A DNA stretch of 64,000 nt from an uncultured Alteromonas sp. (lineage in GTDB: Bacteria > Pseudomonadota > Gammaproteobacteria > Enterobacterales > Alteromonadaceae). A program made the position numbers and the translations under genes. Shown piece after piece: positions 55,841 to 64,000 of this stretch. The notes beneath the pieces were generated by a model that was not told the DNA's origin, made no database searches, and worked only from the letters and a program-made list of their open reading frames with translations. Position 1 is the first letter of the stretch. Each line of letters starts with the position of its first letter. Location of the stretch: NCBI RefSeq assembly GCF_913058315.1, contig NZ_CAJXQY010000008.1, positions 1 through 64,000 on the forward strand, written 5' to 3'.

Positions 55841-58800
55841 TCAAAGTATCAACTTCATCATCTGATTAAACGTAGAATCAAATGCGCTCCGCGAATCTTC
55901 TGTAAATTCATAGGTGCCAAGGAAATTAATATGCGCCCAAGCAATGACCGACCCAGAACTGATTGATTCAATTAGTTGCTTCCTCTCTGCTTGCTCCTTT
56001 ATCTTCAAACAATGATCTGAAAGAAAAAGATAATTCCATAAAATCACCATGTTTCTGAGCAATGCATTACATGTCGCAGCAATTGTCATACCTTCACTCG
56101 TACCAGTTTGGATTTTTCCACCTCTACCAAAAAAAATTTTTTTAGCGAGCGACTGTCCAAGTTCTACCCTGGTGAGTTGTTTGTTGATGCGCTGTCTTAA
56201 ATGTTCATCATCTACGTACTTTAGAATGAAGTGTGTTTTCAACAAGCGACCAAATTCCTTAAATGCTCTGTAAAGCGCACTATCACGTTCACTTGCGGAT
56301 AGTGTTTTAAGCATTTGAGCTGGACTACAACGACCCAGTTTCATTGATACCATTAGCCTTAATATATCGTCCCAGTGTTCTAAGATAAGCTTTTTATTGA
56401 TTTGTTTTTTAGGGCAAAGTGGGGAGTTTGCATTGTCTCGCATTGACTTTAAATTGAAGCCATAAAGTCTTTGTCGCCATACATTTTTAATTCTGGGAGC
56501 AAATGATACTCCGCAAAGATGTAACCCCGCAAAAGTGGCATCTGTATAACCATGTGTGTCGGTTGAATGCAGGTGTTTATCAATTTCTTCCATTGAGAGA
56601 ATATCCTTGCTATTTATTAGACCTTCTAGAACATAAGGAGCTTCTCTATCAGAGGACGTCATGACATTTACACAGAATAGACTCTGCTTTTCATCTAGAA
56701 AACTATTTATACTGACACCCTGTTCTTTGCCATAGTACTTATAGGAAAAATTCGCTAGAAGTGAATTAACGCTAACAACGACTTTTGTTGCGTCACTCAC
56801 CGAATGTAGTACGCCTTTTATATCGCTATAAACTGTGGGCAGTGGTAATGACTGAATTGTTGCCACTAATCTATCATTTGCTTTCTTAAGATTATTGAGT
56901 GTTATCCAGTTTTTTTCAGTATCAATAAGGGCCTTTTCGGAAAAAACTTTAGTAGCCCTAGCTAGCCCATAATGTCCAAGATTAGTACCTAGGCTCAAAA
57001 TGGTTGCGAATAAAAGTTTTCTGTTCACATCAGTTTTGCCACCTTTCGCTCTGCGATTGGTAAAGCATTGAAAAAATTCTGAGTGTCTATCAGCTTCAAA
57101 CATAATCTCTTGCAACGAAACACCCTTAGCTCCTTGAAGCAGCTGAGGAATGACTTTTTCAACACTGAAATTTGCCTCAAGGTCTTTGACTCTCCATCCA
57201 TCTCCTTCATCTGGAACAAAGAATGGGTTTTCACCAGTGTCAATTCGCTTGTTGGATTCAATGAAACCTTCACATACAGCCTTCCCAATCTTGTTTAACT
57301 CTGCCTCACCATCAGAAAAGTGAAGCATGTTTGTCGCTTTCATTAGTCTAATTTTGTTATTAGCCCATTCGTCATCAGATATTAGGTAATGTGGTGCATG
57401 CTTATATTTGTATGAGTGAAAAATTGTAATGCTGCGTTCCTTGAGGGCTTTGCACAGTGAAAGCATAAGTAGGATCCGAAATTTATCGACTTTTGAGTAT
57501 TCATCATCTGCCAAAAGTGATGCCTTATCTGCTGCCGATAAAAAATCGATAGGCGATGACTCATCAATGTCTTTAAAATTCTGCTTGAATAATTTTATTC
57601 CCTCTAAAAGACTTTGATTTCTGGACGTGCTATCAAATTCTATTTGTCTAATAAGTGGACCCAATTCACGTTGAATTTGTTGCGCATTTTTAAAAAGAGC
57701 ATGGTAAAAATCAACTTGTTTCAGTTGATTATTGAGACTAGTGTCGACCCGCTCCAATGTTTCATCAAAATCTGAGTTTTGGCTTTCGAAAAAAGCAAGT
57801 ATGAGTTGCCTGATTTGCTCCTTAGCTTGCGCATCAGACAAGGTGCGGTCGCTTGTCAATACCAAAATTTTGTTGAGAACCTTTTTCAGTTCTTTGGCAG
57901 TTAAAATAATAGTTTTATTATCTTCGTTTAATTTTTGTCGCCCTTCGTCTAGCTTTTTTCTCTCCGTTGATTTTGCCTTGTTCATATGTCCTATCATCAC
58001 TTTAATAATCGCATCTGCTGATGCATCGTGACGTTGGTAGAGTTGATCTTTTATAAATGCGCAATGGAGTAAGAGGTTGTTTGATGTAAGCCTGAGTTTT
58101 TTTAAGTTTTTTACATCTGTATTCTTTACTGTTTGAGCGAACTGCTTTACAGCATCGTCTGTCAGACCTAGTTTGTTCAATAATGGTTGTAAAACATCAA
58201 AATAGGACCTGTATAACTCAAGCATACGGGCATTTGTGTTTAAACTGCGTTGAGTATGTGCCTGGTCAATGTTTTTAAGTTCTCTTGCGCTGTACTGCTC
58301 ACCGTATTCATCTAAAAAGTCACTGAGCGCATTTTTTTGAGTAGCTGTGATGTTGTTATCGAGCTTTTGCTTTATCGCATTATCAAAGTTTTTGAAGCAA
58401 CTTGTGATTATTTCTATTAACTTAGACAACGACGGAATTTCGATCCTACTCTGCCAACAAAAAGCTACCAAAGAGAACAATACATCTTCCTTATTTTGCT
58501 GAACCGCAACTAAGTTATCAGCATAATCCCGCATTGACGTTAAAGTATCGTCGCTTAGTGGACGCCAATTTAGTTGTGCAAGGATCATTTTTTTGTGTGC
58601 AGCCATTATATGAGGCTTGTACTCGTCCATTGAAATGGTTTCAGAAATACTGAGTGACTTTTTAGCACTTTTTATATCTGAACTATCGAATCGACTGGGG
58701 CTGAAGAATTGCCCTTTTTTGTGAAAGTAAGCACGCATTACGAGAAAGCCAACCTTATTTACCGGAGAACTTATTTTATTGAGTAATTTTCGAGTTCCAG

Positions 58801-58900
58801 TATCGATGAGAAACAGGACGTCCTTGTCTTCTTTGTTTAATTTAGGTATGTTTTTGAATGCTCGTTCGCGCGCAGCAGAGAGTATTTTTAGCTCAGGCAT
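55841..58900 (-). mobile_element. tnpA: Tn3-family transposase gene
   Basis: The protein has 1019 residues, the usual length for Tn3-family TnpA. The N-terminal DUF4158-like region precedes a long helical middle and the RNase-H-like catalytic end. The DDE residues fit at D703 (VSDATK), D781 (STDTHGYTDA) and E913 (TRVELGQ), and KKIFFGRGGKI and CNALLRNMVILWN are also family motifs. The whole frame is intact, so it may still be active. No resolvase gene or clear 38-bp terminal inverted repeats could be picked out by eye. It transcribes toward the truncated membrane sensor gene, so the left transposon end probably lies near 55760-55800. The region has lower GC than the core. Confidence 0.9.
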
Positions 58901-59069
58901 GATCTGCTCTTATAACCATTAAGTGTTACTAATTAATTTTATATAACCATGTTTCGATTTTTATGCTTTGTACAAAACATAAAAATTAAATTTTCGTTAT
59001 TAAAAAGCGGTGCATTAGCTCAGTTAGCTATATGCATTTATTTTTTTTTGTATTTACAACTGTCGGGTG

Positions 59070-59894
59070 ATGATGACCACGCCTACTAATGAACTTTATC
59101 AACCGCTCGTAGATGCATACGACCATTTCAATCAAACACTTTTTCACGAAAAATTACCAGCGGTTATTTTTACGTTACAAAGGAAAAAAAATGTAGCAGG
59201 GTTCTTTGCTGCTCAGCGATGGGGAAACATTGAGGGTGGAAAATGCAATGAGATTGCAATTAACCCATCTTATTTTGCTAACTCTAGGATCATTGAAGTA
59301 TTTCAAACGTTAGTGCATGAGATGGTTCACGCTTGGCAATTTCATAATGGAACGCCTTCTACAGGCCACTATCACAACAAAGAATGGGCTCAAAAAATGA
59401 TTGAGATTGGATTAATGCCTTCAACTACAGGTGAACCAGGTGGTGATATTGTGGGTCGTCAAATGGGCGATTTTATAATAAAGGAAGGTGCATTTTTGAG
59501 AGAAGCAAGAGTTCTCATAGAAAACCCTCAATTCTCCTTAATGTGGGTGGATAGGCTTGCTCTGCCTCGGCTGTCAGAACCTGTTATAGCCGACTTAAAG
59601 ATGAATAAGCAGGATGGGATAAAACCGGAACCCAATAAAGACGAATTACAAGCGTTAGCTAATTCTGCTTGTGAGTCTGAATCGCTGTATAGTTACTTCA
59701 GCGCTATAACAACCGAACAAGACAAACCAGCCAATGAATCACTGCCTAGTGACTTTTTTATCTCTAACAGTGAAGTCGCTAGGAAACCTTCTCGTTACAA
59801 ATATGAATGCCCCAACTGCAGCACTAAAATATATGGGAGGCTGGGTCTCAACATAATGTGCTGCGACTGTAACACAAAGTTTGTCAGTGATTAA
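59070..59894 (+). CDS. SprT-like zinc metalloprotein with C-terminal zinc ribbon
   Basis: The protein has 274 residues, read from ATG at 59070; GTG 59067 and ATG 59073 are alternatives. The N-terminus is the SprT-like domain: YDHFNQTLFHEKLPAVIFTLQRKK, CNEIAINPSYF and the zinc helix LVHEMVHAWQFHNG with H83, E84 and H87, plus GHYHNKEWAQKM supplying the third histidine. The end has two CxxC pairs (YECPNCSTKIYG and CCDCNTKF), a zinc ribbon. SprT/Spartan proteins cleave DNA-crosslinked proteins; this plasmid/transposon-associated branch is uncharacterised. It lies in the island next to the Tn3 transposase, in the opposite direction. Confidence 0.88.
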   Translation: MMTTPTNELYQPLVDAYDHFNQTLFHEKLPAVIFTLQRKKNVAGFFAAQRWGNIEGGKCNEIAINPSYFANSRIIEVFQTLVHEMVHAWQFHNGTPSTGHYHNKEWAQKMIEIGLMPSTTGEPGGDIVGRQMGDFIIKEGAFLREARVLIENPQFSLMWVDRLALPRLSEPVIADLKMNKQDGIKPEPNKDELQALANSACESESLYSYFSAITTEQDKPANESLPSDFFISNSEVARKPSRYKYECPNCSTKIYGRLGLNIMCCDCNTKFVSD

Positions 59895-59965: not shown

Positions 59966-60370
59966 ATGAAATTCGCAGCAGAATATTATGAATTGACCGG
60001 TACTAAACTAGGGCGCTCAGTCATGGAAGAAATCAAAACTGGGTTACCTTCTAGTTCTGCTCGGGTAATAGGGGATTTACTATCGTTAACAAGTCAGGAA
60101 ACAGTCTGTTTACTGTCAACGTCGCTAACTTTGCATAATAAAAAGAATGGTGTGTTAAGTACAATCAGTAGCGATAAAGCACTTTTTATAATGCGCGTGA
60201 TTCTGCGTGCCGAAGATATTTTTGGAGATCGAAATCATCTTAAAACGTGGATACGCACTCCAAACATAACCCTCAGTAATCAACAGCCATTACATCTACT
60301 TCACTTTTCAATTGGAGTTGAATCGGTATTGGACAGCTTGCTTCGTCAGAAATACTCATTTGTTGTTTGA
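59966..60370 (+). CDS. Xre/ParS (MbcA)-type antitoxin, no toxin adjacent
   Basis: The protein has 134 residues. The second half matches the antitoxin toxin-binding domain (DUF2384/MbcA-ParS-Xre): IMRVILRAEDIFGDRNHLKTWIRTPNITLSNQQPLHLLHFSIGVESVLDSLL. The N-terminal half gives a helical region that would carry DNA binding or dimerisation. The usual partner, a RES-domain NAD-degrading toxin, should follow on the same strand, but the next gene is on the opposite strand 91 bases away and is not a RES protein. So this is a solitary antitoxin or one that lost its toxin. Such antitoxins can be passengers of Tn3-family elements. Confidence 0.78.
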   Translation: MKFAAEYYELTGTKLGRSVMEEIKTGLPSSSARVIGDLLSLTSQETVCLLSTSLTLHNKKNGVLSTISSDKALFIMRVILRAEDIFGDRNHLKTWIRTPNITLSNQQPLHLLHFSIGVESVLDSLLRQKYSFVV

Positions 60371-60461: not shown

Positions 60462-61421
60462 TTATTCCGCCATTACTTTTTCCCACCTATGCTGACAATA
60501 TCCGCATTTCCCCCCATTCCATTGATCATCAAGTCGCAGTCCCTCGCCACAAATCTCGCAGCTTGTGTGTTCCATTTCGTACTCGCAAGCGACGCATTTG
60601 CCTTCCGAATAAATAAATGTCTCTTTATCACAGCTCAAACAGGTATCGTAAGGTGAATCACCGCCATCCATCACACTTTGTATTGCTTCCCCTCCAAGAG
60701 AGTCATCAATGCATTGCTCGATCACATCATCAAAATCAAATTCTTGTTTACAAGACCTACATCGCAAACCGATACAACTATAATGTTCGTCACTATCTGG
60801 CGCCTCGATAAGAGATGAATGACAATTTGTACACCTTAGATATTTTATTGAATCCACTACAGTCGGATAAACCCAGTCCACTTTATCAAGGCTCATTCGA
60901 CATGATTTCTCTTCGGCTGCATAGATTTCACTCACGCTAAGTAACACTGACCAGGCATCTGGGCCTAAGACCTCCTGAGGATCCAATTTAAGTTGATCTG
61001 ACAAAAAGTCACGAATAAGTAAAAATGACTTGGCAATAATTTCTCTCACAGTATCAGGCGATTTAGATGTGTAGTAATGCTCTAAATCATTACGAAGCCT
61101 ATTTATTTCGTCAAATCTAGACCAATCTACTTCTACTTTTAAGCTTTTAAATCTTTCCTTTATGTTTTGTACATCTACTGTTTTGTGACCTTTCCCTTCA
61201 AATTTAATCGTTCCATCTTCTGTGGATACAGGACGTATATTTTGTTTAATTAACAGTTCTTTATTATCCTCTGGCGATAATTGGCATAACTTTTCTTTGT
61301 AGAGTAATAAAATTCCAGCCGAGATGTTTCTCACAGCTGAAATATTCCGCCTATTGTCATTCGCCTGATGGTCTTCAAGGCCAATTTGTATTGAATCAAT
61401 TGCATTTTTTATAATTGTCAT
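60462..61421 (-). CDS. HEPN-motif protein with C-terminal zinc ribbons, unrecognised
   Basis: The protein has 319 residues. The N-terminal ~190 are helical and contain RNDLEHYY, the R-N-x3-H form of the catalytic motif of HEPN RNases, after a long helix (NRRNISAVRNISAGILLLYKEKL) typical of that fold. The second part has several CxxC pairs: RCTNCHSS, RCRSCKQEF, CLSCDKE, CVACEYE, CEICGEG and CGYCQHRW, which look like three zinc ribbons. I do not recognise a named family. HEPN proteins are RNA-cutting toxins of many defence systems; the ribbons could bind nucleic acid or a partner. It has no obvious antitoxin (such as an MNT nucleotidyltransferase) beside it. Its stop lies 91 bases from the antitoxin stop, convergent. 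Confidence 0.65.
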   Translation of the reverse strand: MTIIKNAIDSIQIGLEDHQANDNRRNISAVRNISAGILLLYKEKLCQLSPEDNKELLIKQNIRPVSTEDGTIKFEGKGHKTVDVQNIKERFKSLKVEVDWSRFDEINRLRNDLEHYYTSKSPDTVREIIAKSFLLIRDFLSDQLKLDPQEVLGPDAWSVLLSVSEIYAAEEKSCRMSLDKVDWVYPTVVDSIKYLRCTNCHSSLIEAPDSDEHYSCIGLRCRSCKQEFDFDDVIEQCIDDSLGGEAIQSVMDGGDSPYDTCLSCDKETFIYSEGKCVACEYEMEHTSCEICGEGLRLDDQWNGGKCGYCQHRWEKVMAE

Positions 61422-61423
61422 AA

Positions 61424-61672
61424 TTACTCAACTTTTCTGTCTTTCCCTGACGACGCACGTCGTTTTCGCTCAACCTGGACATAAACGGTATCGGTAGTGG
61501 CACTGCTAGAGTGCCCTAAATCTTCGGATAAATCTTTCAGTGGACGATCTCTTTCAATCTCCATACTGGCTTTTCCTAAACAAAACTTATTTTTTACGCA
61601 TAGCAAATGAGAATTATTACCAATAATGGTATTTAACTCATAAATGGCTGTTTTCGAGACGTCAAAATACAT
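61424..61672 (-). pseudogene. Remnant of a tyrosine recombinase/integrase (C-terminus)
   Basis: The last ~37 residues of this frame read DLSEDLGHSSSATTDTVYVQ...RKRRASSGKDRK, the C-terminal end of phage-type integrases: a histidine-containing LGHSS and the catalytic tyrosine in TVYVQ. The catalytic Arg and the rest of the core are absent, and the upstream part (YFDVSKTAIYELNTIIGNN...) has no integrase match I can see. Its start region overlaps the end of the YkgJ gene on the same strand in another frame. It is best read as the scar of an integrated element. Only the tail is strongly supported. Confidence 0.7.
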
Positions 61673-62231
61673 CTCTAATCTCCAACAATGAAGGCCTACC
61701 ACTCTCAACTCTAATCAAATCATAAGACTTATTTATTTCAGTAAAGGAAAGTAGTGGAAAAGAATATTCAAAGGCGTTTTCAGGCTTACACCATTCATTC
61801 GTTTCAGTCATGGTAACGTGTCTTCTGCATACAAAAGGCCGAGTATCATAAATAGAGCAGGCACCATCTTTGAGAAACGGACATGGCGTAAACTTACTGC
61901 GTTCTTGTTTCAGTATTATTGGTTTTCTTTTTATCCCAGAACTGTTTTCAATATTCTGTATTTCAATCTCCGACACCTTGACTGGATAAGTGCAGCAGTG
62001 GTTACAGCCTTTAGCGCAGGGCGTAAACTTCTCAACATGTGCAGATAAATCATCCATTAAGGCATATAACCTGTTGAGTTTTTTCAACACTGGCATATTA
62101 GCTTTGGTTAATCGTTTTGCTATTTTGGCTTCTTTTTGGCTCAATACAGACGGAAGAGAATCTGAAAAATTTTTGAAATTAGTTTTGGCTACTTTATTGG
62201 CTTCTTCATAAGTTTGATCTTGGTTTGGCAT
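61662..62231 (-). CDS. YkgJ family cysteine-cluster protein
   Basis: The protein has 189 residues and the YkgJ (zinc- or iron-chelating, CxxxCC) pattern: FTPCAKGCNHCCTYPVKVSEIEIQNI, then CPFLKDGACSIYDTRPFVCRRH with further cysteines and CKPENAF. An AAGGAA ribosome site precedes the ATG at 62231. The family may bind a metal or iron-sulfur cluster; no reaction is established. It overlaps the integrase remnant at its 3' end, so it was joined to that scar by rearrangement. Complete by length for the family. Confidence 0.85.
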   Translation of the reverse strand: MPNQDQTYEEANKVAKTNFKNFSDSLPSVLSQKEAKIAKRLTKANMPVLKKLNRLYALMDDLSAHVEKFTPCAKGCNHCCTYPVKVSEIEIQNIENSSGIKRKPIILKQERSKFTPCPFLKDGACSIYDTRPFVCRRHVTMTETNEWCKPENAFEYSFPLLSFTEINKSYDLIRVESGRPSLLEIRDVF

Positions 62232-62329: not shown

Positions 62330-62968
62330 ATGATTAAAGTAGTAAATATTTCCGAAACAAGTCCCAGTGAAATCATAGAACATGTTAATGCGCATGGCAT
62401 TTTGGCTATTCATGGCGGGAGGCTAGAGGTTCGAAATGCTCTTAATCAAGCAAAAGAGTTAGCAAATCCAGAAAACTCAAATGAATATGTGTTTGGTCTG
62501 ACTTTCAATCACGACAAAACAGAGCTCGGGCACCCGCACAATCCAAACATATACACCCTCGAACATGCAAAAAATCTCGCCATCCCTGCCTTTAAACGAG
62601 ATGACTTAAAAAAGATTCATCCTAAAGAAGACATTCCGCCCAACACAATCACATCAGACCAACAGGACCCCCTGCGTAAGTTGGTAAAACAAATAGAGAG
62701 TTTGGAAAAAATGGAAACTGTCGGCACCGGTGAAGAGCCTTGGGAAATTTGGGACCAATTGTCAGTTTATTGTGATGCGATTAAGACGGAGGGTAGGGCC
62801 CGCTACAAAAACATAGCCATGGACAATTTTGACAAAGGCCACTCGTTTTTGCTCACTTGGTTGGTTCAATTGCTGCAGAACAACATTGCATCACTAAAAA
62901 GAACGAGTGAATTTATTGGCTATTCCCGAAATAGAACGATTTGTCATCTGATAACCACATTCATCTAA
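62330..62968 (+). CDS. Unrecognised protein, first gene of an island unit
   Basis: The protein has 212 residues, is mostly hydrophilic, and has no membrane segment or signal. The start MIKVVNISETSPSEIIEHVNAHGILAIHGGRLEVRNALNQAKEL is alpha/beta in appearance. The middle is charged (IHPKEDIPPNT) and the end is helical (FLLTWLVQLLQNNIASLKRTSEFIGY). I find no family signature. The next gene starts 15 bases after its stop, so the two are likely co-transcribed and may act together. The base composition is AT-rich, like the rest of the island. The odd C-terminal end (NRTICHLITTFI) leaves open a small truncation. Confidence 0.6.
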   Translation: MIKVVNISETSPSEIIEHVNAHGILAIHGGRLEVRNALNQAKELANPENSNEYVFGLTFNHDKTELGHPHNPNIYTLEHAKNLAIPAFKRDDLKKIHPKEDIPPNTITSDQQDPLRKLVKQIESLEKMETVGTGEEPWEIWDQLSVYCDAIKTEGRARYKNIAMDNFDKGHSFLLTWLVQLLQNNIASLKRTSEFIGYSRNRTICHLITTFI

Positions 62969-62983
62969 ACCCGCTAACACACA

Positions 62984-64000
62984 ATGTCAGTAGAAAAAGA
63001 ACTTTTAAAAGTAAAAAGACGACTGCGATATTTTGATAGATCCTCAGTGCTCATTGAATTTGATCGGTTTTTGTCTGAGCATCCTGAACACAGTGTAGAA
63101 CGCTTTCGAAGATTGCCCTTTTTGAGCTTCCTAGTGGTTGAGTGGCTTTTTGAAGTCACTCCCCACAAATCAACTAGGGTTGCCAGCAAAAAGGATGTAT
63201 ATTGGTTTGTGAATAGGTTGTTCGAGTTAAATGGCAAAACAACAGCGGGTAACAATTCAGACTCGCTCATTTTATTTATGCGACCGCTTATCAATAATCA
63301 ATTCTGGATCCAACACCGAAACGAATATTGGTTGCGTGCATTGATCAATCAATTCGAGATATTCCATCCCGATAATACAAGCCCATTCGACAACGAATTT
63401 AAGCAAGCAACAGGCATAAAGCTGAGCGATTTCTTTGTTATTGTGTCTTATGTATATTTTGGTATGAGAGCAGAAAACCGACGGCTGAACTATATTCAAA
63501 TTGTTAAACAACTGCATCCATATTATAGCTTGGAGACGATAGCTAAAAGTATTCGCATTATTGCTGGCACACCAACGCAACTACAAGACTTCCTTTGCAA
63601 CACGTTCCCCAGAGAAGTCACCGATACTGTGACAATTGCTGAGACGCGGCTTTTGCATAAACCCATTCTGATTACCGCAGGTTATTTGTACTGTGCAGAT
63701 ATCACCTTGCTAGGGCGAGGTATAGTTGAGGCTGCACTCAATCATTTTGTGCGCAAAAATACGTCAGGCTTTCGCAAGCGTTTTGGTCTTGCATTTGAGC
63801 ATTACGTCAACGTTTGTTTGTCTCGACCAGATATTTCTTATCTTAGAGAAACTGACGTTGAGGCTATATACAAAGCTGCAGGGATCTCGGGCAAAGTGAC
63901 CGACTTTCTTGTGACGGGCGACGATGGATGTGTATTTGTTGAGGCAAAAGGCGTTGTACCTCGTGCTGAAACGTTGTGCACTGCAAATCCCTATCTGATA
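62984..64000 (+). CDS. Protein with PD-(D/E)XK-nuclease-like motifs (3' end outside window)
   Basis: The frame is open from the ATG at 62984 to the last base, 339 residues so far. The first ~260 residues are helical and basic with no recognisable domain. After that comes the pattern of a restriction-endonuclease-like fold: E272 in RFGLAFEHYV, D307 in GKVTDFLVTGDDG and E320-x-K322 in CVFVEAKGVV, that is helix Glu, strand Asp, strand ExK, in the usual order and spacing. So the protein is predicted to cut nucleic acid. It follows the unrecognised 212-residue gene by 15 bases. The family is unknown to me; assignment rests on the motif only. Confidence 0.6.
   Translation, partial: MSVEKELLKVKRRLRYFDRSSVLIEFDRFLSEHPEHSVERFRRLPFLSFLVVEWLFEVTPHKSTRVASKKDVYWFVNRLFELNGKTTAGNNSDSLILFMRPLINNQFWIQHRNEYWLRALINQFEIFHPDNTSPFDNEFKQATGIKLSDFFVIVSYVYFGMRAENRRLNYIQIVKQLHPYYSLETIAKSIRIIAGTPTQLQDFLCNTFPREVTDTVTIAETRLLHKPILITAGYLYCADITLLGRGIVEAALNHFVRKNTSGFRKRFGLAFEHYVNVCLSRPDISYLRETDVEAIYKAAGISGKVTDFLVTGDDGCVFVEAKGVVPRAETLCTANPYLI

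Follow-up and report, generated by a model that had tools for sequence, protein, structure and literature searches.

We analysed the first 64,000 nucleotides (the window) of an Alteromonas contig that is 76,908 bases long. At the right-hand end of the window lie two tightly spaced open reading frames on the plus strand, which a preliminary description, made from the letters of the window, had presented as a possible undescribed two-gene defence unit. The first is a 212-aa ORF at 62330..62968, and the second gene starts 15 nt downstream, at 62984. The window end cuts gene 2, leaving 62984..64000 (+), its first 339 codons, inside; the contig runs on, and following it rightward, as had been advised, yielded the full ORF of 529 aa at 62984-64573 (+) of the contig. 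Both genes sit in the AT-rich island that had been noted, with a G+C of 0.36-0.42 from 55 kb to the window end, as compared to 0.41-0.44 at 45-55 kb and mostly 0.43-0.52 earlier. Against a codon table made from 25 long ORFs in the first 55 kb of the window, neither gene reached even the lowest score among these ORFs (on which the table itself was trained), yet in each case the gene's own frame scored best of the six. From these low scores in otherwise best-scoring frames, we infer that both genes are real and of foreign origin.

Several neighbours of the two genes had also been named. The transposase is the first of two Tn3 transposase genes (window 55841-58900; NCBIfam/Pfam), and the antitoxin corresponds to an Xre/ParS-type antitoxin-like gene at 59966-60370, though its score of 67.4 bits is below the curated cut-off of 90. 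The protein that had been called HEPN (319 aa, minus strand, 60462-61421) contains an RNDLEH stretch, which we take to be the kind of R-x4-6-H stretch found in HEPN proteins. No HEPN model matched the protein, but it matches the PADLOC candidate family PDC-S64 (8.8e-60). CxxC pairs are also present in its C-terminal part. The "dead integrase" at 61424-61708 was not substantiated, as it gave no NCBIfam match at E ≤ 0.01. Beyond the window, a CBASS operon, presumably of the type II kind, occupies contig 71721-76166 and encodes a patatin-like phospholipase, a CD-NTase, an E1-E2 protein and a Cap3-like isopeptidase, the last of these below its curated cut-off (112.8 versus 200 bits).

On sequence evidence, gene 2 is a member of the already described GapS1 family of anti-phage nucleases. 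Its product scored 345.7 bits against the NCBIfam model NF047931.1 "antiphage_GapS1", for which the curated cut-off is 320, and the model was covered end to end (residues 10-464 on 1-455 of 455). The proposal of an undescribed family was rejected on this match, because NCBIfam's own cut-off places the protein in GapS1. No Pfam family (E ≤ 1) and no PADLOC family matched it, an unnamed PHROGs family did so at 2.8e-17, and a sequence search of solved structures with it and with the 212-aa protein returned no significant match. In an alignment of 13 GapS1 sequences (A2), all 13 rows matched NF047931, which was the sole NCBIfam family hit at E ≤ 0.001; four weak PADLOC matches were found among these rows, one row each, the best at E 0.0002. 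The GAPS1 system has already been published (Mahata et al. 2024, Nat Microbiol 9:3268-83, doi 10.1038/s41564-024-01840-5; cited in PMC12774648, PMC12259885, PMC12715929 and PMC12629846). The Alteromonas protein resembles the family in its full-length match above cut-off, its shared catalytic residues and its defence setting, and it differs from the aligned members in its low identity to them, 15-25% against the remaining 12 rows of A2 and 18-24% in a second alignment of nine sequences (A1), as well as in having the 212-aa ORF in front and a Tn3 transposase gene to either side. With GapS1, the PDC-S64 protein and CBASS close together, the suggested phage-defence setting has gained substance, and the gene adds a divergent GapS1 in an ordinary defence island that also contains CBASS.

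The preliminary description had tentatively assigned gene 2 to the PD-(D/E)XK nucleases from four residues, E272, D307, E320 and K322, all of which are present as it stated. Taken by itself, this motif is of little value: when the protein was shuffled 2000 times, 1589 of the products contained the pattern E-x25-45-D-x8-20-[DE]xK, and we rejected it as stand-alone evidence, being no better than chance. Since the motif is so common by chance, it becomes telling only when its conservation among homologues and the fold are considered. A1 and A2 jointly hold 18 distinct GapS1 proteins, which are not 18 independent sequences, because two of them, from loci L011 and L029, look almost the same in the alignments. 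The Alteromonas protein has the same catalytic set as the 17 other members, the exceptions being a single Q (position 272) and a single K (position 353). D307 (codon 63902..63904, +) and K322 were invariant in all 18; position 320 was D or E in all 18 (codons of E320-A321-K322, the [D/E]xK motif, 63941..63949, +); and E272 (codon 63797..63799, +) and Q353 were each kept in 17. E289 was E in 16/18. The N-terminal part also has positions common to the family, Q106 and P227 (18/18) and R100 (17/18). Together, the alignment and the structural model described below name E272, D307, [D/E]320-x-K322 and Q353, as well as N-terminal Q106, P227 and R100, as targets for mutagenesis.

An AlphaFold (AF2) model of GapS1 built from A2 had a mean pLDDT of 83.4 and a pTM of 0.85. 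It consists mostly of helices over residues ~1-258, followed by a PD-(D/E)XK-like core at ~260-381 and a helical C-terminal part, which agrees with the helical domain of ~260 residues that had been proposed in front of the core. The core elements are helices 260-280 and 336-364 and strands 308-311, 315-322 and 374-381. E272 is placed in helix 260-280, D307 just before strand 308-311, E320 and K322 where strand 315-322 ends, and Q353 in helix 336-364. The conserved residues and the predicted fold thus support the earlier nuclease call, with the expected residues on the expected elements of a predicted PD-(D/E)XK nuclease. In a second-look alignment (VIA-align), the leading solved structure was N.BspD6I (Z 10.7, 168 residues, 3.5 Å), and further matches were R.BspD6I2 (Z 9.2), McrBC (7.6), FokI (7.5), HindIII (7.5) and Can2 (6.9); by the aligner's own caveat, a Z under 8 may reflect a common arrangement only, and among the rows shown only the BspD6I chains and one further protein, Upx, exceed 8. 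We take the BspD6I proteins, McrBC, FokI, HindIII and Can2 to belong to the PD-(D/E)XK superfamily, and the titles of the structures name nucleases. The identity of N.BspD6I and FokI to GapS1 is 11-13%, the N.BspD6I alignment takes in 168 of the 529 GapS1 residues, and the rmsd of the FokI match is above 11 Å. A search of a viral structure library with the model gave no match at E ≤ 0.001.

That a nicking endonuclease ranks first by Z among the fold matches, and that the family score is moderately above its cut-off (345.7 versus 320), could be read to mean that gene 2 encodes a PD-(D/E)XK protein of another role, in repair, a transposon or restriction, that is merely GapS1-like. We regard this as extremely unlikely, as the protein matches one curated family over its full length and no other, and it shares the N-terminal positions Q106, P227 and R100 with that family.

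The remaining protein with a Z above 8 was Upx (PDB 9wuf, "Cryo-EM structure of Upx"), which we take to be a defence protein. It was the only match in a Foldseek search of the PDB at E ≤ 0.001 (3.9e-6), and VIA-align gave Z 9.4 over 365 residues, with residues 1-429 of the GapS1 model on residues 771-1272 of the Upx chain. By fold, then, the C-terminal part of Upx resembles GapS1 across both the helical and the nuclease domains. The two differ in that the Upx chain has 1212 residues and the rmsd to the GapS1 model is 9.6 Å, so that the domains are oriented differently or the match is partly loose. A sequence comparison of Upx with GapS1 gave no match at E ≤ 10; because no sequence link was found, the kinship is a lead, not a demonstrated homology. 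It suggests that a sensor-nuclease module may be common to two defence proteins that were named separately. Among the literature matches listed, in which subscription journals are thinly covered, no paper was seen to link GAPS1 with Upx.

GapS1 is sparse and scattered in its distribution, as is the case for mobile defence genes. At E ≤ 0.001, the NF047931 model matched 6 of the 369 genomes sampled from the class, two of them above the cut-off, and none of 14 control genomes. With a profile of the nine A1 members, matches were obtained in 9 of the 394 genomes sampled from the order (two weak) and in 7 of the 398 from the phylum (one weak). The window's own genome is counted each time, and the samples have genomes in common. 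Three weak matches were left unaligned, one from the class (L010, E 3.1e-4) and two from the order (L023, 2.6e-6; L024, 1.7e-4). Other genomes of the same genus, of which the order sample has six, gave no GapS1 match in the class, order or phylum searches. By tblastn, the protein matched 6 plasmid records at E ≤ 1e-5 and 17 phage records at E ≤ 0.01, 16 of the latter being Klebsiella phages. Pattern scans of viral and genome contigs, which reach close relatives only, found no relative of GapS1. A GAPS1-like protein has been reported in the Klebsiella prophage ST437-OXA245phi4.1 (PMC12774648), and the protein of this prophage matches the Alteromonas GapS1 over residues 236-469. The neighbours of gapS1 vary among the loci at which they were identified, and mobile elements are found at several: integrases adjoin the gene at three loci (L015, L009 and L033), phage portal and terminase genes at L029, a portal gene at L011, and ICE genes at L013.

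At the Alteromonas locus, Tn3 transposase genes flank the 212-aa ORF and gapS1 on both sides. The downstream one is convergent and ends 45 nt from the gapS1 stop codon. A gene so close to transposon genes might be an inactive relic left beside them. This appears very improbable, because all 529 codons are open, the protein aligns end to end with its homologues, the catalytic positions are kept, and of the six frames the gene's own scores best on the codon table. We also considered gapS1 as the cargo of a delimited Tn3 unit and rejected it, since neither a repeat search nor a pattern scan found a Tn3-type inverted-repeat pair. A 19-nt sequence just after gapS1 had no second copy in the surrounding region at up to 3 mismatches, and for the 71-nt stretch around it the rest of the genome gave nothing beyond short, weak matches (best E 0.088). 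Searches of the surrounding region for tRNAs and Rfam families found neither.

The 212-aa gene was examined as the proposed partner of gapS1. Pfam gave no hit for its product at E ≤ 1, HTH families included, and the ORF6C gathering cut-off was not reached. Residues 105-191 matched residues 130-209 of phrog_17822 (E 1.2e-5). Two full-length phrog_17822 relatives carry ORF6C (PF10552; 25.7 and 24.0 versus the Pfam cut-off of 22 bits), along with weak HTH matches, and a direct profile comparison aligned the same region of the 212-aa protein (probability 26.8, E 0.00068). The likeness to ORF6C-type phage regulators is thus weak, indirect and confined to the C-terminal half, and the protein is shorter at its C terminus than the phrog_17822 members. 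As judged from these matches, it is possible that the 212-aa protein is a relative or a remnant of a phage-type regulator. Other matches were weak as well, to TIGR00044 (E 0.016, far below its cut-off) and phrog_18255 (E 0.031), and an AF2 model from the lone sequence was uninformative (pLDDT 41.6). A search with phrog_17822 found 23 of 247 genomes, the window's own included, mostly via the N-terminal part of the model, a part to which the 212-aa protein shows no match.

Relatives of the 212-aa gene were then sought at other GapS1 loci. ORFs were listed around 17 GapS1 genes, our own and 16 others, with L009 (in A2) not among them. No relative was found at the 16 other loci (phmmer without filters, ORFs of at least 50 aa; best E 1.4); the upstream gene would be unseen at one of them (L039), because its contig starts 127 nt before gapS1, which leaves 15 of the 16 readable upstream. 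The 212-aa protein had no second copy in its own genome and, among 146 genomes, found only itself. Among 369 genomes of the class, it found itself and a 40-residue match (E 0.0075) that contains two stops and lies mostly in the gap between two unrelated genes, overlapping the end of one. Neither 72,556 plasmid and 50,697 phage records (E ≤ 0.01) nor pattern scans of genome and viral contigs yielded a relative. We therefore rejected an obligate two-gene unit, as no relative of the 212-aa protein accompanies gapS1 at the other loci or was found convincingly elsewhere, and, to judge from these searches, the two genes probably do not make up a new two-gene system. The preliminary description had looked to homologues for both the motif residues and the partner gene; the outcome is mixed, as the residues are kept and no partner was seen at the other loci.

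A weaker form of the proposal is that the locus holds a two-gene variant of GapS1, in which the 212-aa protein regulates the nuclease, senses for it or neutralises it, its ORF6C-like part being tuned to infection. The genes are on the same strand, and the 15-nt spacing suggests co-transcription. A consensus scan detected neither a plus-strand promoter-like site in front of the two genes nor a terminator-like site. The ORF6C-like C-terminal half and the codon scores, by which both genes fall below the lowest of 25 core genes (which also trained the table), point the same way. Against this, no 212-aa relative was seen at the 16 other GapS1 loci, 15 of them readable upstream, and the genome, plasmid, phage and contig searches gave no convincing one; we consider such a variant unlikely. 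Similarly doubtful is a broader form, in which GapS1 here has recruited the upstream gene as an ORF6C-like, phage-regulator-derived second component, acting as a regulator or sensor, and GapS1 and the C-terminal part of Upx belong to a wider family of helical-sensor PD-(D/E)XK proteins. The described GapS1 system reportedly works as a single gene. With a high degree of confidence, we favour the reading that gapS1 lies on mobile DNA and is most likely a single-protein defence gene, with the 212-aa gene most likely a passenger; that gene is probably not a required partner.

For GapS1 as a single-protein defence gene, we propose that the helical domain at the N terminus most likely detects some product that the phage makes while infecting the cell. 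Sensing would switch on the C-terminal PD-(D/E)XK nuclease, which in turn would stop host growth and so block the spread of the phage, an abortive outcome. The founding GAPS1 is reportedly triggered by a phage capsid protein and said to induce dormancy. The trigger and the substrate of the Alteromonas protein may differ from those of the founding system, because its identity to other members is low. No GAPS1 mechanism paper, by title, was among the literature matches listed, where subscription journals are thinly covered; a conference report states that GAPS1 of K. pneumoniae is protective against many phages (PMC12908700).

Two further gene arrangements were observed in the AT-rich stretch and beyond it. 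Between the second Tn3 gene and CBASS, a helicase-like gene (463 aa) and a 168-aa gene overlap by 4 nt on the minus strand (contig 69229-71123). The helicase-like protein matches Pfam ResIII over its cut-off and RadD far below cut-off, the 168-aa protein matches no NCBIfam family, and it is possible that the two are another defence pair. The two Tn3 transposases are 25% identical to each other, and an SprT-like gene adjoins each Tn3 gene, recognised by Pfam beside the first and by 37% identity to this protein beside the second. Tn3 and SprT-like genes together span 55841-59894 in the window and 64619-68627 in the contig, with one pair arranged divergently and the other pair sharing a strand, and they possibly form a recurring Tn3-SprT module.
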